Part shown: in pieces, positions 19,255 to 63,838 of the stretch
How the letters are laid out: each line of letters begins with the position of its first letter
Numbering within the stretch: the first letter of the stretch is position 1
Assembly (NCBI GenBank): GCA_014155875.1
Contig: JACEFZ010026849.1
Location: 362,001-426,000 of the forward strand
Reading direction: 5' to 3'
DNA from: Cepaea nemoralis
Lineage: Eukaryota > Mollusca > Gastropoda > Stylommatophora > Helicidae
Length of the DNA stretch: 64,000 nucleotides
Notes under the pieces: generated by a model
The model's database searches: none
What the model saw: the letters and a program-made list of their open reading frames with translations, nothing else
Told to the model about the DNA's origin: nothing
Made by a program: the position numbers and the translations under genes

Positions 19255-20712
19255 ATGTTGAAAGCAGGCATAATAACAAGATCAAAATCAGAATGGTCAT
19301 CTCCGGTGGTAATCGTAGCCAAATCTGATGGTTCGAACAGGTTCTGTTGTGACTACAGGGCGTTGAACACAATTACTAAGAATGTAGCGTACCCATTGCC
19401 GGTGATTGATGATATTTTGGGATTACTTAATGGCTCCACATTTTTCACAACACTAGACGCAAGATCAGGATTTTGGTGTATACCTATGTCAAAGGATGCT
19501 CAAAATAAGAGTGCTTTCTGTACTCATATGGGTTCGTACGAATTCTTACGTATGCCATTCGGTTTGAAAAATGCACCGTCTCACTATATGTTCTTAATAA
19601 ATGAAGTACTAGACGGTATGCAAAATTTTGCCCTAGCATATATAGATGACATATTAATATTTACGAAAGGAAATGTAGAGAATCATTTGAAACATATTAG
19701 ACTAGTATTTGACAGATTAAGAAGGCATGACGTTAAATTAAAGCTTAGCAAGTGCCAGTTTTTAAAAACAGAAACAAAATATTTAGGCTATATAATAAAT
19801 AGGGAAGGTATTAAACCAGACCAGGACAAGATAAAGGTTATTAAAGAGTTACCTGCTTCCACTAATGTTAAGGAAGTGCGTGCATTTATAGGAACGTGTG
19901 CATATTATAGGAGGTTTGTACCAGGGTTTTCAAGGATAGCAATACCTATTACGAATTTAACGGGTAAATACGCTAGATTTAAGTGGGATGATGAGTGTCA
20001 AAAAGCGTTCGAACTTTTAAAGGATAGCTTAACAGTGGTACCATTATTAACACATCCAGACCTGAATAAACAGCTAATACTATACACAGATGCTTCAGAC
20101 AACGCAATAGGAGCATGTTTGGTTCAACCATATGAAGGAGAAGAATCTGGAATACCAGGGGTTAAAAATGAAAGACCAATCTATTTCTTGTCTCATAAAC
20201 TCAGCAAGACTCAAAAGAAATGGCCGATTATTGAGAAAGAAGCATATGCTATACACTACGCTCTTCAAAAATTAAATTACTACTTACATAATGCCAATTT
20301 CATTATTAGAACTGACCACATGCCATTAAAGTCGATATTAGAAGCACCAATACAAAATAGGAAAATACAAACGTGGGCATTGAATTTACAGGGGTACAAT
20401 GCTAAGGTTGAATATGTTTCAGGGAAACATAATACATGCGCCGATCTTTTGTCTAGGATTCCATATACACAGTCATCAGGAAACACGGAAGATGAAGCTG
20501 AACCAGAGATAGACGATAGAAACTGGCAAGTAAATATATTAGATTCTGCCATAATAAATAGGGAAGAATTTGAGAGTTTACCATCGGATCAAGAGTCTGA
20601 ACCTAGAACAGAAGACCCACATTTAGAACAGTTTGATATGAAAGTAGAACAAGAGTTAGACCCAAAAATAGTACAAATAAAAAGAAAACTGAAAGAAACA
20701 GGGGGAAAATAG
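19255..20712 (+). pseudogene. Gypsy pol middle part: reverse transcriptase and RNase H
   Basis: The 485-codon frame carries the complete RT palm: LDARSG (catalytic D68), LRMPFGLKNAP at about residues 98-108 and YIDD at 129-132. A connection domain follows, then RNase H starting LYTDAS (D279) and containing TDHMPLK. Both active sites look intact. The frame stops at 20710 after a G5 run at about 20700-20704. The integrase zinc domain follows in another frame, which suggests a one-base indel in that run. Lengths and spacing are normal for 17.6/412-type gypsy elements. Confidence 0.95.
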
Positions 20713-20719
20713 TTTTAAA

Positions 20720-22425
20720 AGAAAGTTTGTAGAGTTACAAGAAGACAATCAATTATATTATATCAGTGAAAAAGGTGAAGGACTAAGAAAATATATTCCG
20801 AAACATTTAGAACAAGAAGTCTTAAAGGCATATCACGATAATAATGGTCATTTTGGACGAGATAAGTTAGTGAAGGCTATTAGCAGTAAATATTACTGGC
20901 CGAATTTATTCAAAAGCGTATATGAATATGTTGAAGCATGTGAAAAGTGTAGGTTAAGAAACATGAAGATAATCAAATGTCCTTTACAAGATACCGATAT
21001 TCCTCAATTTCCAATGCAGAAAGTAAGTTGGATATTTCAGGTCCTCATCCAAAAACATTATCGGGAAATGTATACCTACTACATATAGTTGATTCATATA
21101 GTCTCTGGCCAGAAGTTTATCCAATTCCAGACAAGAGTGCTGATTCAGTTATAAATATGCTGTTACAAGAATTTATACCAAGGTTTGGGTGTCCACAAAT
21201 AATACTTACAGACAATGGGAAAGAATTTGTAAATAGAAAGTTTGAAAAATTGGTAAAAGATTTGAATATAAAACACATTAGGACTTCATATTACAGACCA
21301 ACTTCTAATGCTAAAAATGAGAGACAACATAGAACACTATACAATGTTCTAGCGAAAAATGTAGAAGAACATGATATGGATTGGGATCTTTATTTGGGGA
21401 TAGCATTAGCGGCGATACGTACACACGAAAATGAAGGAACAGGTTTCTCACCATTTTACTTAGTACATGGGAGAGAACCAATATTGCCAATTGATAATTT
21501 ATTAAAGCCTAGGAGAAAATATCTGGGGGAAGATTTTCAGGAAACAAGGTTGCAAGAGATGCACAAAGCACATGTACGTTTAAGAAATAATATAATTAAG
21601 GCTAGAGAAAGACAGAAGAAATACGCAAATAAAAATGCACACTTACAAGAGTTCAACGTAGGTGATAGGGTGTATTACAAAAAACATAGAAAAAACTCTA
21701 AGTTTGATGCTCATTGGGTCCCGGGATATTATATTTTAGAAAAAAAGGGCCCAGTGTCATATACTATTAAGAATCAAATTTCAGGGCATGTTGCACGTTC
21801 ACATGTAGAACACTTAAGGCGGGATAATGAGGAAAGGGATGCAGAGAATAGTAATAATAATTATTGTTCCGAAGAAATATTGTCAGGTGGACAGATTGTC
21901 AGACAATCGGTATATCCTATACCTATAGAGAATGGGAAACAAGTGACAACAGCATCTACTACAGCTGAACAAGAAGAAACATTACCAAAAACAGTCATGA
22001 CAGGGGAAAATAACATGTATGACGATTATATTAGCGAAGAATCAGTCAAGGAAAAAATAGAACCTCCATTTATGAATACAAGACAGGCAGTAAAAAGAAA
22101 GTTGGATAGACAGAAAGAAAAAGAAATTAAGAGGCAAAGCAAACTTAGAGTGAATTCTTCAAGTGGTGAAGATATGCCACTATTTGAAAATTTGTTGAGA
22201 CGGCAAGACAGGAATATTAGATTGGATTTAGAAAGGAAGAAATTAGCGGTTGCTAGTAATGGTTATACAGATGGGGAACAAGAGATGGATGAAAAGTCAG
22301 AAACTGATGAAGAAGCTGATATGAAAGAAGATAGCTCTCCTCGGGAGGATAGCGACATTGATGTAGATATTGCACTTATCGAAAAAAATGTGAAGTTATT
22401 AAGAAAATGGAGAGGAGGTAGATAA
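20720..22425 (+). pseudogene. Gypsy integrase with C-terminal extension
   Basis: The HHCC zinc domain is at about 20830-20960 (AYHDNNGH ... CEKCR). A frame change near 21027, in a short T run, leads into 20977-22425, which holds the catalytic core. Counted in that frame the triad is D39 (HIVDSYS), D79 (LTDNGKEF) and E115 (NAKNERQ), a DD35E spacing. A GPVSYTIK block marks the GPY/F module of Ty3/gypsy integrases. A further acidic and charged tail of about 190 residues follows, without a known domain. No envelope-like protein follows. Confidence 0.9.
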
Positions 22426-26889: not shown

Positions 26890-27120
26890 ATGTACTACGA
26901 GGAGCGGCTGGCCGAGAGGCTAGAACGCCGGACTCTCATTCGGGAGGCCCGGGTTCGATCCCTCGGTAAGGTGTCGGATTCTTTTCTGTCGGGGGCAAAA
27001 AGAAAATCCTAACCTGCACAGTTCGCGGAGACTGCACTAGCCAGGCGGCCTTTATTCCTCAGGCTCAAAGACCCCTCTGCCATACACCGCAAGGTACTAT
27101 ATTGGCAGTAAATGACAGTT
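26890..27120 (+). repeat. SINE-4 family copy
   Basis: The tRNA-like head is 'gcggctggccgagaggctag' with 'gggttcgatccctcgg' as a near-consensus B box. The body 'aacctgcacagttcgcggag' to 'ccgcaaggtactat' recurs without the head at 29190-29350. Confidence 0.75.
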
Positions 27121-29943: not shown

Positions 29944-30002
29944 TAACTTTTTCTGCCCAGCTATGCACCGCTTTACGGGACAAACATTTGTCAGCATAAA
30001 CA

Positions 30003-32449: not shown

Positions 32450-35400
32450 TTAAATGTCAACCTGTATGTAGTTAAAGTAAGCTGCGGTCAACTTTAGCTT
32501 GTTGATATCTCCATAGAGCTTGTCCTCAAATGAAGCAGGTGTGGGCCAAAATATCTTTCTCTGTTCTGCATACGTTGGGCAATCCTGCAGCAAATGTTTT
32601 GCTGTCATTTTTCCAGTTCTACAATTACATTCATCGGTATCTCCTATCTTTAGTTTATTGAACAAGTGGTATTTCAACCTGTTATGTCCTGTGCGGAGTC
32701 TGAAGATTGCTACTTGTTCTCTTCGGTCGAGTTTGTAATATGCATCATCCTTCTGGTGGCCTGGATGCTCTGATTCCCATTTGGTTCTATAAGTGCTTTT
32801 TATCAACCTCTTTGCCTCATTATAGGTTATGTCTATGTCAGGCTGTGGTAGTCGTCCGCCCTCTTTTGCCAGTCTGTCAGCCTCTTCATTTCCAGGTATA
32901 CTGCAATGTGATGGGATCCACTGTATTACAACTGTTTTGGATTTCTGGCATAGACCATGGAGTGCTGCTCTTAGGTCAGCTATTTCTGTGCTGTTATTGC
33001 TCTTCAGTATTGAGACAGCTGACTTTGCATCTGTAAAGATAGCTATTTGCGTCTCTTTTTTTTCCTCCATCAAGAGCATTTCTGCTGCAGTTTTCAGAGC
33101 CTCTACCTCCGCTTTGAAGTTACTTGAAAACTTTCCAGTTGCCACTGAATGTGTTTTTTTCACTCCATTTTTTAAATTTAGGAGAATTCCTCCCCCTCCA
33201 TTCTCTACTGAATTTTTGGCTGATCCATCTGTATATGCATGGGTCCAATTGCTGCTTGGGTAATGTTCTTTTATGTAGTTTAGGGTTATTTCTCTTCTTT
33301 CGGTTTCATGCTGAGTGTTCTTTTTCTCAATACCAGGAATGTTTTCTATCATCTCAGGCAGTTGCTGCTGTCTCCAAGCTGGGAACTTGTCTGCATTGTA
33401 AATGGGTTTGACTGTTGATATGTTAAGTATGGGATCTGCCCTAATCTTTCGTTTTGCAGTTTCTACAAAGTTGCTACGCTTCAGTCTTCCCTTTCCAAAA
33501 CCACTAAACCTTTTATACATAGGGTGGTCTGTCAATCTTCTAAATTTTTCAGCTTGTTGCTGGGCTCTGCTATCTCTTCTATCCTGCATTGGTTGTAAAC
33601 AAGTGATCTTTTCTAATTCATTAATAGGCGTTGTCTTCAGGCTTCCAGTTATGATTCGCATTCCTTGATTTTGGACTCTACTTATTTTGTTAAAGTTTGA
33701 CTTAGCTGCTGTTGCCCAAGCTGCAATGCCATATTCCAGTACTGGCCTCACCCGTCCAGTATATAACTTCTTGAGAACTTTCTCATCTGCTCCCCATGTT
33801 GTACCAGCAAGCTTTTTCATGATTGCCATTCTTTGCCTTGCTCTTGTTCGATTTTTCTCAACCTGTGTCTTCCATGTCAGGCGACGATCAAAGGTGACTC
33901 CTAGATAGTTTGGATTTTCTTCATGGCGCAATATTTTTTCATTCAATACCAGCTTAGGTTGCTGAGTTTTAGTTGAGAGGGAGAACACTGTGCATGTTGT
34001 TTTCTCCTCACTTATCTTCACTAGCCATGATTTTGACCAGTCCTCTAGCGCTAATAGGGCTTGCTGTATTCTGCTGTTAGCTGTACTAATATATTCTTCA
34101 GATGTCCATATGGCTAGGTCATCTGCAAAGGATGATGTGTGTACTCTGGCTGGAAAATTTTCCGTGATGTCGTTTATATATGCTAGGAATAATGTTGGTG
34201 AAAGAACTCCTCCTTGGGGGACACCTTGCTCCAACAGCATCATTTTGCTGGTTTGTCCTTGTACTTTTGTCCTGGCAGTTCTGTTCTCAAGGTAGTGGCT
34301 GATCCATTTGTACATTTTCCCGCAAACATGCATTTTTTGCAGTTTTACTTTCAGTCCTTCCTTCCATACTTTATCAAATGCTTTTTCTAAATCTATCCAG
34401 ACTGCTAGTGTGTGCTTTTTCTCTTGGAAGGCATCCTCTATTTCCTGAGCTATATAGGTTATTTGATCTTCAGTAGATCTGTACTTTCTGAATCTTGCTT
34501 GGTGAGGTGTTAAGAGTTGGTTTTCTTCCAGATGCCATGTTAGCCTGCCATTGATAATGCATTCCATTAATTTTCCTACACAGCTAAGAAGACTGATAGG
34601 TCGATAGCCATTTGGTTCTTCCAGGTCTTTTCCTTTCTTTGGGACTGGTATTAGTATAGCTTCCTTCCATGCCTGTGGGACTATTCCCCTCTTCCAGCTG
34701 TAATTTAGGACTGCTAGTAGTTTCTTTTTTGCCTTAGTGCCTAGTCCTATTAGCATTTCATTTGTGATTCCATCCTTTCCTGGTGATGTCTTCTTTTTTA
34801 GGGTATTCATTGCCTGTTCCATTTCTTCCATTGTTAGATTTGCCATCATATATTCTGCTGCTGTCTCTGTATATGTATGATGTATCTGTTTATCTTTGAT
34901 TGCTTTCTTCTGTTCGGCTGTAATATCAATGTGGTTTGCACTGGCATAGTGTTCCATTAGTGCATTTGCAGCCTTTTTTCCTGTAAGCAAGGCATTTCCT
35001 TGTTTAATTGTTATTTGTTTGTTTCTAGGTCCTTCATTGTTCATGGCTTTCACTAGTTTCCATAGTTTGTTTCCATCCCTGTCAAAATTCAGGTTTTCTG
35101 TTTTTTTCCTCCAACAATCTCTTGTTGTTTGATTTACTGTTCTTTTATATTTTGCTGAGATGGCTTTGAGAGAGATGTTCGCTTCAGTTGTTTGTTCTCT
35201 CTCTGCGGTCTTCCTAGCATCTTCAACTTTGTCCTCCAAAAATTGTAGTTCTTCAGTCCAGTATGGTTTGTAATTTTTCCTTGCTCCTCTTGGAATAGAC
35301 TCAGTGGCCGCCTGTATTATTGCTCTGTTTAGACTTTCCACCATTTGCTTCATGTTGCCATATCGTGTATTTACGTTTTCACAATATTTGTCTGTTAGTA

Positions 35401-36301
35401 TGGCAAATCTGTCCCAATCTGCTCGTTTGTAATTCCAACGGGGCAAAGGCTTTTGCTCCTGTGGAACATACTCCATATTTATTACAAGCTTGATTGGTCT
35501 GTGGTCACTACCTGCTAATTGGTCCAGCACATGGCGATCGATTTTGTGGAGGATGTCTCCTGTGCAGAAAGCTAAGTCTGGAGTAGAAGTGGTAATCCAT
35601 CTTCTGGAGTAGAAGCTCGGTGTGTCATCCGCTTTGTTAAGTAGATGGAGATTTGAGTCTATTTCCCAGTCCTCCACTTCATCTCCTCTTTTGTCAGTAT
35701 CTGGGTATCCCCATCTTTCTGAACGGCTATTAAAGTCTCCGACAACAATGCAATTTGTGTCAGTTATTTCCATGTTTGAGAGTGTAAGATCCTTATCTGC
35801 CGGGCTATATAGATTGTAAATTCTTATTTTCACGTCCTTTATCATGATATCAACACGTATAATTTCTGTTTGGTTGTCAGAGATCACAGATACTTCGCTG
35901 CAAGGTATTGTATTTCGTGTAAGTATTACAACTCCTCCTTTGTGTCCTTCGCGGTCGAAACGTGTGGCCTGATATCCCTCGACTGGAAATGTGCGATTGG
36001 CGTTGAGGTGTGTCTCTTGAATGCATGCCACATCTATTCTATCTTTATGAAGACGCTGTGTTAGGGAGGCTTTCTTGTTATAAACTCCTTCTGCATTCCA
36101 TTGTAGTATGTTGAGTGTCCGGGGTGTTTGGTCAATAGCTCTTAACCTACTCCTCTGTGCCTTGACTCCACAGCACAGGGGAAGGTGACCACCAGTAGTC
36201 ATGGGTGGACCCCCTCGAGGCAGGGGGCCCGGCACTATCACCGCCTGATGGGACTTCACGGGATTAGCACCATAACGATTAATTTTCATCTGTGGCATCA
36301 T
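32450..36301 (-). CDS. LINE A polyprotein: endonuclease, reverse transcriptase, RNase H
   Basis: The 1283-residue ORF is uninterrupted. The APE-type endonuclease covers about residues 62-275: QWN at 67-69, QE at 95-96, GDFNS at 188-192, TPDLAF and the catalytic GSDHRP at 264-269. RT covers about 505-800: GYRPISLLS, WIDLEKAFD (D637), GVPQGG at 693-698 and FADD at 725-728. RNase H has D1025 (YTDGS), E1065, D1091 and D1142. A cysteine/histidine cluster, C1225-C1227-H1236-C1241, lies near the end. The product would nick target DNA and prime reverse transcription there. I take the first ATG. Later in-frame starts before the endonuclease (for example M34) cannot be excluded. Confidence 0.95.
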   Translation of the reverse strand: MMPQMKINRYGANPVKSHQAVIVPGPLPRGGPPMTTGGHLPLCCGVKAQRSRLRAIDQTPRTLNILQWNAEGVYNKKASLTQRLHKDRIDVACIQETHLNANRTFPVEGYQATRFDREGHKGGVVILTRNTIPCSEVSVISDNQTEIIRVDIMIKDVKIRIYNLYSPADKDLTLSNMEITDTNCIVVGDFNSRSERWGYPDTDKRGDEVEDWEIDSNLHLLNKADDTPSFYSRRWITTSTPDLAFCTGDILHKIDRHVLDQLAGSDHRPIKLVINMEYVPQEQKPLPRWNYKRADWDRFAILTDKYCENVNTRYGNMKQMVESLNRAIIQAATESIPRGARKNYKPYWTEELQFLEDKVEDARKTAEREQTTEANISLKAISAKYKRTVNQTTRDCWRKKTENLNFDRDGNKLWKLVKAMNNEGPRNKQITIKQGNALLTGKKAANALMEHYASANHIDITAEQKKAIKDKQIHHTYTETAAEYMMANLTMEEMEQAMNTLKKKTSPGKDGITNEMLIGLGTKAKKKLLAVLNYSWKRGIVPQAWKEAILIPVPKKGKDLEEPNGYRPISLLSCVGKLMECIINGRLTWHLEENQLLTPHQARFRKYRSTEDQITYIAQEIEDAFQEKKHTLAVWIDLEKAFDKVWKEGLKVKLQKMHVCGKMYKWISHYLENRTARTKVQGQTSKMMLLEQGVPQGGVLSPTLFLAYINDITENFPARVHTSSFADDLAIWTSEEYISTANSRIQQALLALEDWSKSWLVKISEEKTTCTVFSLSTKTQQPKLVLNEKILRHEENPNYLGVTFDRRLTWKTQVEKNRTRARQRMAIMKKLAGTTWGADEKVLKKLYTGRVRPVLEYGIAAWATAAKSNFNKISRVQNQGMRIITGSLKTTPINELEKITCLQPMQDRRDSRAQQQAEKFRRLTDHPMYKRFSGFGKGRLKRSNFVETAKRKIRADPILNISTVKPIYNADKFPAWRQQQLPEMIENIPGIEKKNTQHETERREITLNYIKEHYPSSNWTHAYTDGSAKNSVENGGGGILLNLKNGVKKTHSVATGKFSSNFKAEVEALKTAAEMLLMEEKKETQIAIFTDAKSAVSILKSNNSTEIADLRAALHGLCQKSKTVVIQWIPSHCSIPGNEEADRLAKEGGRLPQPDIDITYNEAKRLIKSTYRTKWESEHPGHQKDDAYYKLDRREQVAIFRLRTGHNRLKYHLFNKLKIGDTDECNCRTGKMTAKHLLQDCPTYAEQRKIFWPTPASFEDKLYGDINKLKLTAAYFNYIQVDI

Positions 36302-51108: not shown

Positions 51109-54100
51109 ATGGCTAATAAAGAAGATTATTTAGATGCTTTAACAGGTATGTTTATTATTATTATTCATTCACTGTTTTATAGATTTATTTTGGAATTAAC
51201 GAATATATTATTGGCCAGTGGTTACAATTAATTTGTTAACAGAACACGTTTCAAAATACAAATTAATTTAAGATTAAGTAAGAAGGAAATTTGGATTTGG
51301 TGGCATCACCCGAAAGTGAGCTTCATTATTATAATTAATATAATTTCATTACGTTTTTGGGTATTTTGTAAATTAACTACTTGTGAATTATAGCTTTCAT
51401 AAACACTTTTAGCAAAATATAGTAGAAGTAATAGTTTTGACTCTTGTAACCTGGCATTTTAACTATAATATTAATAATACGACGTTTTTAATTGGCAAGT
51501 GGGGTGGTGTTTTGACTGTTGTTATTTTTAAATGGAAGGCTCTATTCGCAACAGAATTGCGAATAGAGAAAAATTATATTCGCAATAGAATTGCGGGAAG
51601 TAACAAACGTGTGACAGCGTCTGCTCACTTGTCAATTTTAGTTTGAGCCATTAAGAAGTCTAAGAAGGTGGTTAATTTAAATAGGAATTTCACTGTTGCG
51701 AGTTTAATTCTGCCGAATTCTCTGTAATTTTTAATAAATCACCCTTCTTTCTTCTGTCAGTTATTCTGGCATCCCGTTTTATTCTTACATTTCATTACGT
51801 TAGTCCTGTTTAAATATCCAGAATAATTTTCCAGAACTGGTAATCCCAATTCCACCTGGCGCTGGAACGCAAATTATTCCTCCCCACGACGCTTGAAGGC
51901 AGAAGTAGAAGATGATGGTATCCCCAATACAAATAACGATCCCTACAAATAATTGTGTCCCCAGACGAGTTCAAGAATTGTCAGCTTTCATTTCTGTACA
52001 CTTACTGTTACCAGGCATCCATGTTTGTTTACATTACCGCCCTATTATGTATGTCCTGATAATTCTGGTCCAGACTGACAGTAATATGCTTCAATCATCA
52101 CACTTTATTCACATGCTTAGAGTTTCTCAGTTCTATATTTTAGTTCCTAATGTTTAATATTTGTACATATTTGCTGAAAATGAAAAAAAAATTGGGTACT
52201 TCACCGACAAGGAATCGAACCTTGAGCTCACTTTATGCTGAGGACACTTTACACATCAACAAAAATTTATAATATAGCTACACGCATAGGAATAATCACG
52301 TGACCTACTTCTGCTGCGAATATAATTTTTTTTCTATCCGCAATTCTATTGCGAATAGTCACTTCGTTTTTAAATTTAAACTGAATTAATTTTTATAAAA
52401 ACATATGTGACTAACCCTTAGTGTCATGTTTATTTAAATATTTATACATATTTCTATTTTATTTATATTTCAATGTTGTGTTATTAAATAATACAATATT
52501 TTTGTAGAATGTTTAGTAAAATGGCCATGTAAACAATTGATGGTTAGCCAGTTAAGTATAATAAAATAAAAACTCATCAAATTAGTTCTGGAAGTAATAT
52601 TTAGGTGTAATCAATTAATGAATTTAATAAGTTAAATAAGATCATATTCTGTATTCAATTCTAATGTCAAATCAGTACATTTGCATGAATCAGAAAAACT
52701 AAACACACTGAACAACTAAAATTAGTAGTAGTAGGATGTACACTGAGAATAGTATAGTAGTACAATAAGTAAAAAGGCCATTGTCTGGAATCCACATTGC
52801 AAAATAAATATTACAGAGGAAGACCTAAAGACACAAGAGAAGTAGAAATAGAAACCGATAAGAAGGCTTGGAATTAGTTGGTTGTGTGGCCCAAGCCTAA
52901 ATGGTAAAGAAATAGTGAATACAACTTCTATAATTTTTCAAAACTTATAAGCAAATGCTGAAACATGAAGAAATTCAATAGTACCTCATTCTAGCTTTTA
53001 CATCAATTATAAAAGATTATGCCAATGAAGAACAGTGTGGGTTAAATTTTTTTTCCCCTCTAAAGTACTAATTGCCAAGAATATTAAAAAAATTATTGCC
53101 TGTCCATGATGGCATGTTTTTGTTATGAAAAGAGGCATACAGCTGGTTCATGGAAAACAATTTGCTGGGATGAATGAACTGAGATGAGTTGCGACCACGG
53201 CTGAGACTACTGCCCAAAAACTTGTACGAAGTGACTATTCGTAACAGAATTGCGAATAGAAAAAAAAATTATATTCGCAGTAGAAGTAGGTCACATGATT
53301 ATTCTTATGCATGTAGCTATATTATACGTTTTTGTTGATGTGTTAGCGTGTCCTCAGTAGCTTAGTGATAAGTGTCTCTGCCTGTCACGAGGGAGCTCGA
53401 GGTTCAATTCCTTGTCTGTGAAGTAAAAATATTTTTTTTTTTCATTTTCAGCAAATACGTACAAATATTAAACATTGGGAACTAAAATATAGAACTGAGA
53501 AACTCGAAGCATGTGAATAAAGTGTGATGATCGAAGCATATTACTGTCAGCTTGGACCAGAATTATAAGGACATACAAAGTAGGACGGTAGCGTAAACAA
53601 ACATGGATGCCTGGTAACAGTAAGTGTACAGAAATGAAAGTTAACAATTCTTGAACTCGCCTGGGGACACAATTATTTGTAGGGATCATTATTTGTATTG
53701 GGGATACCAGTTCTGGAAAATTATTCTTGATATTTAAACAGGACTAACGTAATGTAAAAATAAAACGGGATGCCAGAAGAACGGACAGAAGTAAGAAGAA
53801 GGGTGATTCATTAAAAATTACAGAGAATTTGGCAGGAATTAAACTTGCAACAGTGAACATTCCTATTTAAATTAACCACCTTCCTAGACTTCTTAATGGC
53901 TCAAACTAAAATTGACTACTGAGCAGACGCTGTGACATGTTTGTTACTTCCCGCAATTCTATTGCAAATATAATTTTTCTCTATTCGCAATTCTATTGCA
54001 AATATAATTTTTCTCTATTCGCAATTCTATTGCGAATAAAGCCTCCCAAACTTGTATAGCCTTGTGGGATTTATAAAACGATGGGATGAATGTTCACAGA

Positions 54101-57100
54101 GATTATTTTGAGAAATAAGAAGAAATATATAAGTTTAACATAGTTTTCAAGTTCGTTCAATAATAAATAGTTTTAAAGTTTGCATCTCATATAGTTTGTA
54201 CTTAGTATTTTTGACTTAACTGCATATACCCTCATATTAAATTAGATGCGGATATAACCCATTCTATAATAACATGAATACAAGTGAGTTATTAAGAATT
54301 TCATATTTTTTTTCACCAATGTAACTAATTTTTAATTAATGTACTGAATCCCACAATTTGTGGTAGTTTCACTGAACTTTCCTGGTATTACTGAGCATTC
54401 ATCAAAGTACGCGTTTTTGAAACAATCTAGTGTATACAGTTTGAACATGGGGTGGTGCAGTATAAGCACACCAAAGGGACCTATGTTTGTCAAATAATTA
54501 CATCAATATACGTAAGCATACACATTCGTGAACTCATAAAATGTCATAAATGATCACATAGTAAACAGTGGAACATAAAAGCTACATTAGGTACCATGTG
54601 GTGTGGTATTTTCAACTAAGAAGCTGGGGCTAGTCCCTAATCTCCGCTTACAATTGACAGAATTTGATATTTTTTTGTTTGTTCGCTCACTTTTGATCAA
54701 GCTTAATCCACACACATGCTAATTCTATTAGTCGCTACTACCAGGGAGTGCACTGGACTAATATTTGCATGTGGATTGGCTTTCCATATCACCAGTGTCC
54801 CCTGCCATTGACATACCCAGTCTGAATTCTGAGGTACATTACATCCCCAAATCAAGGACAGGAAGTCAACATTTCATTCCACCTGAACAGTGTAAGGGAT
54901 GAACCTCCTTCCTCACCACCTGCGCACTAGGGGTTAAAGAGCAAGCACTCTAATCAATTTGGCCAAGCTGACTGGATGATTGTTTTATTTATCACCATTT
55001 TCTCATTATTTTCTTTCAAAATGTGACCATTTATGGAAGCATGGGTAGAAAAATCCCTGTTGCCATGGCATCTGGAAATCTTACATGGCGCCTGAATTTT
55101 TAATCGTTTTCTTAGCTCTATTAACAACAAAGAATCTGTTGACGACTGAGGAAAAATAATGGGCTCCAAAATTATGTTCAATTGTTTCTACCTCTGTATA
55201 CAAGTATGTCAGGTAATTTTAATACTTGTATATAGTGTATGATTTTATTTGTTGATATACATTTATCACGTTGAGTTCTTAACTTACATTGTCATAATTT
55301 ATGTTATTGTTTAATATTGTTACTTTACCTTTCAGCATATTCTAAAAATCCTTCACGGGATATACCAGCCGTCCTGGAACAGTATTTGAATGGTGTGGCT
55401 AAAAATGGAGAAACACTGTAAGTGTGGTCAATCATGTTTGTTGTGTTTGTTTATTGAAGACGGGCATATTATTGTTGCCAATCAGTATGTGTATTATTGT
55501 GGTTACTGTTTTCTATATATTTTTCATATTTTTTTCACATAGTTTTCTAGTAATGAGATTGTTCAATAATAGAAGTTAAAAATAGCGATCTGTTTAGGCA
55601 TTTGGTTAATTTCAAATTCTTGAGCTATCCTTTTAAAATTCCGTTTTTAAGAAGAAACTAAAGTTTACCCAAGGAGTATAAATAATCTCAGCGGGTTTCT
55701 CATCAATATATTTAAAGTGTGATCTTAACTTTCAATGTGATAATGCTAGTAGCTACATTACTGTTGAAGTACACACGTCCTCTTACTGAATACTGTCTGT
55801 GTCTATGATGCACATTTTTAACAAAGTGTAGTTCAGTGGTGAAGAAACTTTTTTTTTTTTTTTATTCGTATATCCTTTTACAGGACATCGCTGTCAACAG
55901 CAGCATCTTTCAGCTGTCTAGACAGCAAATATATGTCTTTTAGAAACATGTCGAGAAGCCTTGGACAGAGAAGAAAACAAACACTGACGTTTGGAGAGCT
56001 GCAACTGTTACAATATTAGTAATAAAATTCAAAAGGAAATTTATGGGGCATAACAACGAAAGAGGTGGAAAAGAGGAATTAGCCTATGTGGGGAAAATAT
56101 TAGAATAGACAGAAGAGTTTAAACAGAAGGCAATAAATAATCTAAATAACAGTTTGATCAGAATATCAAGTGACAAAGGATTGGAGAGTCATGATTTCTG
56201 ATGTCTGTCCAAAACAGGCACCCAAAGAAGAGGAAAACAATTGGTACATCTCTTGGAGTCATCGGGATAGAAACTCTTACCGTGGCAAGCTGTGTTGAAT
56301 GTTACATCTCAGAGTCATAGTCAGAGTTGTGTAATGTTTATTTTTTTCTTTACAGATTCCATTGGCAGCTTCTGAAGCCTTTGATCATGGGCAAAATGGA
56401 TCAAGTTATTGGAGAACAAAGACAACGGTTAAGTTCTGAACATATCCCCGACAGACCAAATGTGGAAAATGTGGGCTTTGACGCCATGCATGACCGGATA
56501 ATGGACGCGCTCAGTAAATTTAATGGGTATGTGTTGTATTATTAATTGTGAACGATTGTATTTTCTGAATAGATTTAGGAGATTTTGGTGTTCTTTTTCT
56601 TCTCTCATCCTGTTGTTTTGTGTACCTTTACTAGGGATATTCGTGTAATTTGTTATGTCATATCTTAGTCAGATATGACTGAGCTACCATATGACAGTAG
56701 ATCGTACTACCTGCTTTATGTTGGGCCGCGCTCACCAAACCTGACACCCCACATTGTGCCAACGGCTTTGGGCGTAGGAGTGCTATTGGGAGGGTATAAG
56801 CCTTACTCTATTGCGATGATATGCAATCTAAGGACTAAATGTCATGGCAGGGCAGACCAGGTCCTAAGCCTTGGTCGGCAGCTGGTCTAGGATGGACGCT
56901 CTGACAGGCGGACAGTTAGAACATTGCTTTGTTGATCTGACAGCTTCTGCAGCTTGTCTTGTTCCAGACATATTGGTGTTACCTTTCCTCTGGATTTAAC
57001 TAGGCAGGCAGAGAAAGGGATCATGCTGCATGGGCAACACATGGTCTCTAAATTCAGCCCATGCTTTGTGTATAACTCCATTTTACAAACTATTATCTAT

Positions 57101-57218: not shown

Positions 57219-60200
57219 AGCTTTCAGAAGCCTGTCTTCTCATTACAAAATAAAAAGAATATTGTCTGTCTTCTTGCGTTTGTATGTTTTGTTTTCATTG
57301 TCAATTTCCAGACACTTGTTAGTTACTCTGGTAGTCCAAGATATTTGCAACATATGTCTCAGAAACCACCATCTCTCTTGCCTGTAAGTTTTTAAAATGC
57401 TCGATCACGTTTCATGACTCACTGCTATACACCAGAACTGGTTCTATATAACATATCAGTACTTACTTGTGGCACCAGCATTAGACTTAATAAGATATCT
57501 TTATGTTGGGTACGACAAAACCCTTAGTGTACTGTTTGGTCATAGAAAAACAAAACACATCTTACATAATTTCCCCAATATGTATGTTGAGAGCAAATTT
57601 ACATTTTCACTTAATTTTTCTGTTTAAAAGACATCAGTTCTTGTTTCCCTCTGGGCATTGCTTGTAGTCTTTTACAGTTACAATCAGATACCTAAAAACT
57701 GGGTAAAACATAACCAACCTGAATTCTAACAGCTGCCCTTCCATGTGTGTTGGGGATGAATTATGAACTGGTTACAAACTATTATGTCTGACCTCAGATG
57801 TGAAATTCCAGTACTGGTCTTACAGACCTCACTGGTTTCTTGGCTTGGAGAGGGGAAGGAGAGCTCTACTACAGTGCAGCTAGAGATGTCCAGCAGAGGA
57901 CTCGCAATTTCACTTGTACGAAGTCTTTATTTATTTAAGTATTGTTTTCCTTTTTTCAGTGCTCCTTTTACAATTCAGCGATTATGTGAGCTCTTAATTG
58001 ATCCTAAACGACACTACAGACGCAGTGACAAGTTCTTGAGGGGTCTGGAGAAGGTGTGTTCCATATTTCAATTGTGTGTGTGTGTTAGTTAGTTAGTTAA
58101 TGTTTCATATCCCTTACAGGATGTTGCAGTCAACACCAGCATTTTTTAGCTGCTGTTGATGTACTAGGCAAGTTTTTCGTTCAGTAGTTTATATTTCACT
58201 TGTATTTCAATTATCTTCACCTAATTGACATTTGTTACACACTGTCCAGTTTTTTTATGTTCACACACATGTCCTTCTCTAACATATTGATTCATGATGC
58301 AAACATTTATGAATAATTCTCCAGTTTCGTTTATAACCTCAAGTTGTGCATCACCTGTGCTATCCAATCCTATCTTCGCATTTTAAGTCACCTATCAAAG
58401 TTTTTATATTGCAATTTCTTTCTTTACCTGGAGTACTTCTAATTTCACATAAAAACCCTCCTTAACCGATTGGACTTAATCATTTTTTTTTTTTGGTGTC
58501 ACTGGATCGCATTCATATTTACTCCACATGTTGCTGTTATTGCTTCCCACTGGTTGATTATTCATTACGGCCACTCTTTCACTGTGAAGGGCATTATCTT
58601 CATTGTTTCACCTGCGTATAGACGCTTTTTTGCCTGTTCAGTTCCTTCTTTATTCTCTAATCCTAAATTAGTAATATTTAATTTCACTTGCCACAACATT
58701 AGTCTTTCCCACTTCTTACATAATTTTAACATTCCAGGTGTCCGGGCCCAGTAAAACAAGGGCGCCTTATTTTTCCAGCTCACACAGTTTTTACTCAATG
58801 TAGCATGCATCTTGATGCCTCTTCTTCTTCCTCAGGCTTTCATCAACCAATGAACATGGGCTCTCAACCATTTCACACCTGAAGCCTTCCTATCATTTGC
58901 TATATCTTGTAATTCCTTCCTTGTCTCCCACATAGCTGTTTCTTGTCGTCGTCCTGTTATATGTATGAAGGTTTCATTTCATATTTGAGAATTTTCTCAT
59001 TTATTATTTTTCTCTAAAAGCTGTATTTTGTTGGTAAATTCTAATGTTAATGAGATTCGCTTATGTGAATCTGCCAGTATTATTTGGCCCAAATGGATGA
59101 TGTAAAGCCATACTCAATGTTTTGTCTTTCTGTCATTGGTATTAAATACTTTTGCACGGAATTTTTTTAATTGAATGTTTATTTTTACACCAGTGGGATA
59201 GTTTTGCTTTTTTTAAACATTTACTGGGGAGGACAGCATGGTAGAATGGATACGAGCGCTCGATCTTAAACATCTGCTGTGCTAATGCCGAGGTAGCGGA
59301 TTTAACCGCATCATCTGTCACAGTTGGACTAAATTGTTGACTTATCCTCCTTGACTTATGTAATTTACAAGTACCCCGCGAACGCACAAAAAAATACACG
59401 GGAAAAACACTTACTGCCTTTCAAAATCCTTTTCTCCAGTTTCAAAATATTTGAATAGGGGTAAATTGTTTATTTATTATTGATTATTATATTCATTATC
59501 ATATTATTGATTATTATATTATTTAAGCGAGTTGGATATTAACAATAATTTCATGAAATTTTCTTCTTAATGTTATCTCATCTTATTTAACATTACATTT
59601 CTTTCAGAATGTGTCTGTTGTCAGTACAGTGGATCCTTATGGGAGGTATGTTACTTGTAGATGATACATGTTAGCGGTGTAGATACTGTATGTAAGCTGT
59701 GAAGAAACAAAGTTGTTAGTTTCTTAGAGCTGGCAGATGAAGAAAACATAAGAACTAATATATGAGATTTAGGCTTGCGGATTCAGCTAACGTTCTGCCC
59801 ATCTTGTCCCTCATCTTTTATACCTAAGGAAATAATCACATTTTGTATAAATTACACAAAACAGCATACATATTTATAGTGATCACTTCATAGTTACTTT
59901 AAGAGGAGTGTGAGACAGAGGAACTGGCGACAGATCGAGTCTTTCCGTGAGATCATACGCCATGTCTTCAGATATTTGAAAGTCTAAAACTTCACTCCCC
60001 CAACAGCAACATGTGCCATGGGCTACATGTTACATACATACCATGATGGACTTTTTAGTTATACTTTTAACAGGTTTTTCTCAGTGTATCTCATCCAGCA
60101 CCAGTGTCTTTTACTCGCCTTTTGATTCATCAAAATTCGGTTCATAGTGGTCCTGAAAACTGCTGCATCCCGGCAGTCTGACTTGAAAAGTGGGGAACGA

Positions 60201-61059: not shown

Positions 61060-62200
61060 ACATATACAGTGGCTAAATGGGTGTGTTGTTATTTTACCTA
61101 TTCTGTTATAAGGAAATGACAATGGCTTATTCATTGGCCATTATGTTAACCTGAAATCTGAGCGTGGTTTGTCTTTAGGTCATAACTTATCAGTTATAAT
61201 ATATAAATAACTTATATTTTTACTCAGGGAGTCTGTGGTACCTTGTATCACATTAGGAATTTTTAGCATAGTTAATGTGAAGCCAGCCTCATGTGTAATG
61301 ATCATGATATTTTGATAAATGCACATTTGTCATTGTCATTATCCTGTTTGGCTGGTTGGTTGTGAATCCTTGTGAAAACAGGGTGGTTTATAAAGTACAA
61401 TTCATTGCTTGGAGGTAATCCCAAGTCATATCTATCTATCTGTCTCTATTGGATTACTGATACTACAGTCAGATTTCAATTCCCAGTAATGGCAGTGTTT
61501 TCATATATATAACATAAGTAGGGGTGGGCAGAAAGTGTCAACCCAGCCTTATTTGTATATCTGGGATTTATCTTGGAAAGTTATCTTAATGGCATGTAGA
61601 TTTGCATTGGCGTGGACTGTGAACTTGAAAGGCCTTTTAAGTTTTGTCTGTTTTATACTGTATGTGTTACGTTTCCAGTATTAAGGCGATGTGCGGCAGT
61701 AAAAACATCGATTTTTGGTCAACTTGGCTATTTTTGGAATAGTTCATTTTTAGACACATTATCATGTCTTCTATCAGATTCTGTACTTGTTTTTGTTTCA
61801 AAACTGTTATTTTATGCAATATTCATAATTTACTGAACCCACCCTCTGTGTCAAATCGTATAATTATTGAAAATTGTTGCGAAATTGACGGTTTTCAAAT
61901 CCTAGCAACGATATCTCAGGAAAACACGACACGCGCGTGTAAGGTATCCCTGGAAAGGTCGTGAACTTCCGTAACTGTTCGTAAAACTACGAGTTCGTCT
62001 AATCGGAAGCTCTTCTGTGTACATCGGGTTTATTCGTGTCTATCATCTTCCGGAAACTTCCATATATGGAACATCGTAAGCAATCCGCGTTCGCCGATGG
62101 CTGAAATTGATCACGTGGGTTTCCAAAATGGCGGCTTTGTGTTGTTTACACCTGGCGACGTGCTGAAAGTTCATTGTTGACGACAGACTGACACGCATTG
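61060..62200. other. Probably PPP4R2 intron 6; no exon recognised
   Basis: I found no further PPP4R2 exon here. From about 61680 the style changes and may be the 5' flank of the transposase element ('ggcgatgtgcggcagtaaaa'). No terminal repeat partner was found within the window. Confidence 0.4.
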
Positions 62201-62204
62201 AAAT

Positions 62205-63838
62205 ATGCCTCGTTCTAAGAAATTTAACATAAAGTCATCTACTCAACGTAAGTAATCTCTCAGACTACACCTCGCAAATGCTCGTAAGCAGCGAAAAGCC
62301 TATCAGAACGTCGTAAACGATACAGACAATTCTGAAACTACTGAAAGCGACCCAGCTAAAGTGCGCACATGCCACTTCCAAATCCAAGTGTTTTGACAGT
62401 GAATCTGAATGAATCAGTGCTATCGTGTTCTTCTCAAAGTTGTGGAAGTGATTCTTTTATTACCCGAAGCCAATTTAAAAGAGATACGTATAAATACACA
62501 ACATCCACTAGCAGCAAGTATGATTCTGGTGACGACAATGGATATCAAAAACGGGAACACAGAGCAATAGTTGATTGTTCAGAAATTGAGGCAATAATCA
62601 AATTGTTATGTTGTCCAGTTTGTAAAAATGATAGTCTTATTTTGAAAACTGACAGCAAGAAAACCAAGGGATTAGCTGTGTATGCAGAGGTTTACAGCTC
62701 TTGTTGTGAAGAAGTGATGTGTGGAAGATACCTATCTGCAAGAAGTAATGATGGGGATAGATCTTTTGCTGTCAACAGCCAGTCAGCATATTCAGCATTA
62801 GTCTGTGGGATGGGTGCAACGACATTCAACAATTTTTGTGAAAACATGAACCTGCAAGGTCTTCATCACAAAACATTTCACAGCAAAGCGAATAAACTAT
62901 ATTCAAAGATAGAAGATCTGGAGGACACTGTTTTTTCTCAAACCGTAAAGTATGTTCGACAGGCTCATGCACAACAGTCAGGCATAACTCTACATGACAA
63001 TGATGTGCTAGATATTAGTGTCAGCTTTGATGGCACTTGGCTGACTAGAGGCCACACATCCCACATTGGAGTTGGCTGTGCAGTGGATGTTCTTACAGGA
63101 CTTTGCATAGATGCCCATGTTATGTCCACATATTGCCAGGTGTGTGAAACCACTGGTAAGACACTTTCCAGGGACAAACCAGATGAATTTGCAGCATGGA
63201 AGGCAGAACATCTTCTAAACTGTGACAACAATTTCACAGGATCTGCTGGAATGATGGAGGTGAAGGCTGCAAGGGTGCTGTGGCGACGGTCTGTGGCCCG
63301 TCATAAACTTCGCTACACGTCAATACTTTCTGATGGTGACACCAAAACATTTGCGGAACTTACCAAGATCAACCCATATGGGGATGACATTCAGATAGAC
63401 AAAGAGGAGTGTATCAACCATGTCAGTAAACGCCTTGGAACAGCACTGCGCAAACTAAACTAAACTACTTAGTAGATGTGTGTCAGGACAAACTCAGAAT
63501 TCAAATGAGTGTTTACACAGCTTGATATGGGCTCGATGCACTAAAGACAACTTTGCCTCTCGCAAGCGCGTTCAGTTTGCAGTTGTAACTGCAGCAAGAG
63601 AGTTCAGCTTTGGAGCTGCTGCTGCCCAAGACACTGCCCAGTTTTTGGACCTTCTACAGGCCTGCATATGCAGAGACTAGGAACATTTAGGATGCAGAAG
63701 CAAGTAAGAAATAGTCTGAAGTACAAGAAGGACAAACAAACTAAAAGACGCGACACTGTACGAGCGGCCAAACTGAAGAGACAAGGTGAGCTGCATGCTC
63801 TGGAGGGAGGTCCTGCATATTCAACAGGACAATTTTAA
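62205..63838 (+). pseudogene. Mutator-like (PF20700-type) transposase pseudogene
   Basis: The likely original start is the ATG at 62205 (MPRSKKFN), which hits a TAA after 16 codons. The coding signal resumes in another frame (LANARKQRKAYQN) and then in the long frame 62369-63463. That frame has 364 codons, with a CCPVC/SSCCEEVMC cysteine-rich region at residues 81-118. It contains SFDGTW (D221, probable first catalytic acid), the Cys motif YCQVCE, GSAGMME and a second acid in SILSDGDT (D322). It closes right after KRLGTALRKL. About 100 residues present in relatives seem deleted before NSNECLHSLIWARC (63490 on). One more frameshift near 63675 precedes a basic tail ending at 63838. It resembles the 'Mutator-like transposase' proteins common in invertebrate genomes. 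I recognise the family from motifs, without a search. Confidence 0.8.

Follow-up and report, generated by a model that had tools for sequence, protein, structure and literature searches.

The window analysed here, a 64-kb stretch of Cepaea nemoralis DNA taken at its full length, contains part of a PPP4R2 gene, two inverted copies of a non-coding mobile element (hereafter A and B) upstream of it, and open reading frames belonging to other mobile elements. Three segments on the forward strand, at 55336..55417, 56356..56526 and 57960..58053 (boundaries by eye), join in frame as spliceable exons of PPP4R2, and the last of them matches the Pfam PPP4R2 model with an E-value of 1.7e-17. The joined, padded peptide recovered 8 proteins at E<=0.001, all 8 with the Pfam PPP4R2 domain, the best relative being from Tegillarca granosa (56% identity).

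The segment at 55336..55417 is the first coding exon seen, and since it starts within a codon, a further coding exon should lie upstream. A tblastn search of the window did not recover this exon 1. One motif scan for it gave 19 candidates, of which 7 fit a loose pattern and the 4 located past position 30,000 were inspected, none being convincing; a second motif scan of the window gave no candidates. The element pair lies 1.3 kb upstream of the coding exon at 55336 and is probably situated within a PPP4R2 intron, a placement that assumes an upstream PPP4R2 exon before 51.5 kb. The initial annotation had assigned the pair to intron 1 of PPP4R2; the three in-frame downstream exons bear out the choice of host gene, but with exon 1 not found in the window the number given to the intron is presumptive.

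Two inverted insertions of one element

Alignment of the two copies, together with exact 9-bp target duplications, places element A (833 bp) at 51534..52366 on the forward strand and element B (821 bp) at 53227..54047 on the reverse strand. Both duplications were read directly from the sequence: TTTTTAAAT occurs to the left (51525..51533) and right (52367..52375) of A, and AAACTTGTA to the left (53218..53226) and right (54048..54056) of B. Hence 2 of 2 copies have exact 9-bp duplications, a size within the 8-11 bp described for MULEs (PMC6446971). From the base composition, two 9-mers at given positions would agree exactly by chance with a probability of about 5.5e-6 per pair. The elements had been described beforehand as two related units of about 830 bp with exact duplications, arranged head-to-head 850 bp apart; this holds, save that the spacing between the element borders measures 860 bp.

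When A is aligned to the reverse complement of B, 691 of 751 ungapped columns match (92.0%), and the remainder comprises 40 transitions and 20 transversions; the aligned stretches took in 2 and 1 extra flanking bases. A CpG in one of the copies is the site of 15 of the 40 transitions. The gap runs measure 34, 1, 1, 3, 5, 78, 3, 27, 1, 1 and 1 bp, the 34-bp run corresponding to one end unit (see below). The 78-bp run represents sequence present in A (51838-51915) and absent from B. A short direct repeat, TGGTA, opens this stretch and recurs immediately past it, the pattern that either a deletion in B or an insertion in A would leave. No identical run exceeds 48 bp, a length that is not unusual against random placement (P 0.68), and gene conversion between A and B was rejected on this ground. 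An origin of the pair by inverted duplication was likewise rejected: both the flanks and the 9-bp duplications differ between A and B, and therefore two insertion events took place.

These two copies, both non-coding, are the only ones seen within the 64-kb window. Exact end and interior patterns gave no matches in viral and other genome contig collections, misses that say little given that these collections are mainly viral and prokaryotic.

Architecture of the element ends

The ends of the elements are built from palindromic units, resembling CTATTCGCAAYAGAATTGCGAATAG, that lie inside short outer tips. At one end of A (51534..51595, forward strand) the 8-nt tip GGAAGGCT precedes two palindromic units, the second of them 34 bp past the first. 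The homologous end of B (53952..54047, reverse strand) has the outer motif GGGAGGCT followed by three palindromic units with the same 34-bp spacing. At this end, with the consensus tip GGRAGGCT, the units thus recur every 34 bp and their number varies, with 2 in A and 3 in B. The other end of A (52309..52366, reverse strand) and its homolog in B (53227..53285, forward strand) both carry CGAAGTGA as their outer motif, next to which stand one full palindromic unit and part of another. The palindromic 25-mer, with up to 3 mismatches allowed, was found at 5 places, as against 0 expected from 100 shuffles, which substantiates the palindrome that had been noticed within the terminal inverted repeats.

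Inverted palindromic units are present at both ends of both copies and form inverted repeats of about 42-50 bp; by a simple column count, the repeats inside the tips are alike at 31 of 42 columns in A and 28 of 34 in B. The outermost 8 nt, on the other hand, are alike at just 4 of 8 positions in A and 3 of 8 in B when one end is compared with the other as an inverted repeat. Between the copies these same tips are conserved, with 7 of 8 positions alike for the GGRAGGCT end (GGAAGGCT and GGGAGGCT) and 8 of 8 for CGAAGTGA. Asymmetric short tips outside the inverted repeat and tandem units of varying number are both features of foldback elements of the Tm1 type.

A tRNA-Asp-like unit within the element

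The interior of B contains a tRNA-Asp(GTC)-like unit at 53351..53422 on the forward strand. Its A-box-like stretch (53358-53369, 2 mismatches) and exact B-box (53401-53411) start 43 nt apart, and a run of 11 T residues resembling a Pol III terminator (53432..53442, forward strand) starts 9 nt past the unit. Three such pairs of A and B boxes occur in the window, compared with a mean of 0.5 and a maximum of 2 in 20 Markov sequences. The unit was compared with an animal tRNA-Asp(GTC) and other isotypes, 7 in all: it is identical to the former at 52 of 72 positions over its full length with no gaps, and scores 32 for Asp, the best of the 7, the runner-up scoring 18. Shuffled versions of the unit (n=3000) had a mean score of 1.9 with a standard deviation of 1.3 and reached at most 9. 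When the whole window was scanned on both strands with tRNA-Asp, the unit of B ranked first (66) and a place near 26900 second (42).

Dedicated tRNA detection programs place this unit below the level of a tRNA gene. The Rfam tRNA model RF00005 matches it over model positions 1-71 with 15.8 bits, under the cut-off of 29, and an E-value of 0.44 in a search of 106 bases. No match at E<=1 was obtained with the Rfam tRNA model in the 2,581-base region of the pair, and none at the gathering score across the window. ARAGORN in its default settings, with or without introns, found no tRNA. Relaxed scoring gave 7 tRNAs in the two elements, 4 in B and 3 in A, one of which spans the remnant in A as a 65-base 'tRNA-Met'; however, as relaxed scoring with introns allowed gives a total of 633 tRNAs, the relaxed lists were left unused. 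The unit in B is a decayed tRNA relic, and by the Rfam and ARAGORN tests no tRNA gene.

The homologous place in A holds a truncated remnant of 45 nt (52200..52244, reverse strand, coordinates counted by hand), again followed by a T run and with an exact B-box, GGTTCGATTCC, at 52211-52221 on the reverse strand. It keeps 45 of the 72 nt, and 27 bp of the D-arm, A box and part of the anticodon region are gone. Taken by itself it has a score of 8 with Gly as against 6 with Asp, and in the scan of the window its score of 26 is level with unrelated places. The remnant alone does not point to Asp, and hence its Asp identity derives from the alignment with B. The view that both copies carry a tRNA-Asp-like unit at the same place is thus upheld as to the homologous position and the full-length unit of B, but in A just 45 nt survive, and their Asp identity has no support of its own. 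The unit of B and the alignment of the two copies together make it most likely that the family ancestor had a more complete tRNA-Asp-like unit.

A further pair of A and B boxes, also 43 nt apart, makes up a unit at 26909-26962 on the forward strand, the second-ranking place in the tRNA-Asp scan. The Rfam tRNA model does not match it at E<=10, and it is perhaps a tRNA-derived SINE.

A transposase candidate and other mobile elements in the window

Among 5 open reading frames scanned, one (62369-63463, forward strand, 364 aa) encodes a Mutator-type transposase, matching the Pfam Mutator domain (PF20700) with an E-value of 2.7e-46. It has 216 relatives at E<=0.001, and the best named ones among the 120 of these matches that were listed are from Batillaria, Plakobranchus, Nucella, Elysia, Physella, Biomphalaria and Littorina. 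These best named relatives of a neighboring transposon frame suggest that the host is probably a gastropod. In a search of viral contigs a pattern from this frame matched one stretch, and tblastn recovered no relative. This frame sits 8.3 kb from the element pair and was considered as a transposase partner of A and B. Ends related to those of A and B were absent around it in the window, and within the window the partnership was rejected; its element, whose start near 61685 is a guess by eye, may pass the window end.

Two retroelements were also observed. A 1283-aa frame on the reverse strand (32450-36301) combines an endonuclease, a reverse transcriptase and an RNase H, and seemingly represents an intact non-LTR retrotransposon. 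Two frames on the forward strand (19255-22425), which contain reverse transcriptase/RNase H and integrase domains, are by domain content an LTR-type retroelement.

Origin of the element family and its tRNA-like cargo

We consider that A and B are probably two insertions of one non-autonomous family of the Mutator/Foldback (Phantom, Tm1, Muta) type, whose ancestor took up a tRNA-Asp sequence before A and B diverged. The asymmetric tips, the 9-bp duplications and the changing number of tandem units match Tm1, and the palindromic motif and tandem repeats match Muta1; it is on account of these resemblances that the elements are read as Mutator/Foldback. Under this scenario a Mutator-type transposase would bind the end repeats in trans and move the elements. 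The ancestral element would have acquired a tRNA-Asp gene or pseudogene prior to the divergence of A and B, by capture of a piece of the host as in Pack-MULEs and the Tm1-HH class, and the unit would have decayed after the copies separated, more so in A. The points against the Mutator reading are the short inverted repeats, the occurrence of two copies in the window, and the lack there of a transposase with matching ends; with these taken into account we still judge it the probable one overall. The prior description of the pair as Mutator-type MITEs accordingly fits as far as the 9-bp duplications and palindromic tandem ends go, but no transposase with such ends was found in the window.

The heads of SINEs are commonly decayed tRNA sequences that have kept their A and B boxes. 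The tRNA-like unit might on this basis have come with a tRNA-derived SINE, as its head, when such a SINE landed in the ancestral element and was carried along, a possibility compatible with the rest of the preferred explanation, to which we give some weight while thinking it rather unlikely. The second A/B box unit in the window (about 26909-26962), with its scan score of 42 next to the 66 of B, is in its favor. It is opposed by the T11 run 9 nt past the unit of B, where Pol III would terminate ahead of any SINE body; no tail or inner target duplication is visible by eye, in a sample of two copies.

Duplications of 9 bp are also found in other superfamilies, such as Merlin, which makes duplications of 8-9 bp. 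The elements could thus belong to another cut-and-paste superfamily, or be foldback elements unrelated to Mutator (of the Merlin or P/Galileo type), all the more as foldback ends have arisen with different transposases, that of Galileo being of the P type (PMC3169594). We hold this to be unlikely, because 9-bp duplications, asymmetric tips and tandem units occur together in Tm1 (PMC3169594), and a palindromic motif with tandem repeats in Muta1 (PMC5225508).

A stronger version of the Mutator/Foldback reading can also be formulated, in which the family possesses a tRNA-Asp-derived Pol III promoter, active now or once, and makes short terminated RNAs inside the transposon that would aid its spread, for example through open chromatin. 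This appears quite improbable. If true, a Pol III cassette would here be part of a DNA transposon. A large family would offer tRNA-like sequences and B boxes a non-SINE way to spread in an animal genome, and would allow a test of whether a DNA transposon profits from a Pol III module; the weight of the tRNA cargo depends on the copies genome-wide.

The inverted arrangement itself could allow a long intramolecular duplex between A and B in a transcript. Folding of the RNA of 51525-54056 gave a predicted energy of -1281 kcal/mol, and 3 mononucleotide shuffles gave about -525. Of the 996 predicted pairs, 710 connect A with B, and the longest helix without a break has 50 pairs, in agreement with the duplex suggested at the outset. 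With the copies inverted and 860 bp apart, probably in a transcribed gene, several hundred base pairs of the pre-mRNA could pair as a hairpin. Any two transposons in inverted arrangement would be expected to give one, and the intronic hairpin is read as an expected by-product of the two insertions rather than an evolved device. The initial annotation took it for a likely ADAR substrate with a possible influence on splicing or circular RNA formation; such effects, like Pol III activity, are hypothetical. That the pair is instead a functional regulatory hairpin of PPP4R2 maintained by selection, acting in editing, splicing or circular RNA formation, would accord with the number of joining pairs and the helix of 50. 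It seems very improbable to us in the face of two insertions, each with its own duplications, and of copies that differ by 8% substitutions and large indels and have no unusually long identical run.

Lastly, the resemblance to tRNA might be fortuitous, as the lack of an ARAGORN call, the sub-threshold Rfam score, the failure of the remnant in A to favor Asp and its undistinguished scan score could suggest, but a full-length ungapped match of 52 of 72 positions, a score of 32 where 3000 shuffles reach 9, and the first rank in the both-strand scan leave chance with next to no credibility.

Comparison with known systems

The transposon type is already known; the tRNA cargo is the unusual and noteworthy part. 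Among 18 titles listed from the open-access literature, outside which most subscription papers lie, none names a tRNA unit in a MITE or Mutator element, and this is weak evidence of absence. One published list enters HzSINE1 of Helicoverpa zea under SINE as MITE-like (PMC9659126). Like tRNA-derived SINEs, the present family is a mobile repeat that includes a tRNA-like sequence having A and B boxes. It differs from them in that this sequence is enclosed by the inverted ends and 9-bp duplications of an element, with a T run beginning within 10 nt of it.

Muta1 of Aedes aegypti is described as making duplications of 8-9 bp and as having a palindrome for its terminal motif and tandem repeats in subterminal position, and non-autonomous derivatives of MULEs in the same species bear fragments of host genes (PMC5225508). 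A and B resemble it in duplication size, palindromic motif, tandem repeats and the presence of presumed host-derived sequence in non-autonomous members. They differ from most Muta families in their short inverted repeats of about 42-50 bp, since 12 of the 14 families have ends of >100 bp, a length called typical, and 2 of 14 have ends of <60 bp (PMC5225508). Muta1, moreover, has a known active transposase (PMC5225508), whereas none with the ends of A and B was found in the window. The presence of duplicated host sequence between inverted repeats would be shared with the Pack-MULEs and the animal Pack-TIRs (PMC8277862); the cargo of these is described as gene sequence, and tRNA is absent from the main text of that report.

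The closest parallels are offered by the Tm1 Mutator/Foldback elements of Meloidogyne, in which, according to their description, 9-bp duplications are the commonest, the tips are asymmetric and 7 bp long, and tandem units vary in number (PMC3169594). A and B have the same 9-bp duplications, short asymmetric tips and composite ends of variable tandem units, although the sequences of tips and units differ, and the units of Tm1 measure about 14 bp, in contrast to the palindromic units spaced at 34 bp found here (PMC3169594). One Tm1 class, with members of about 900 bp, bears a histone hairpin motif that is possibly host-derived (PMC3169594), and in the corresponding role of cargo A and B carry a tRNA-like relic.
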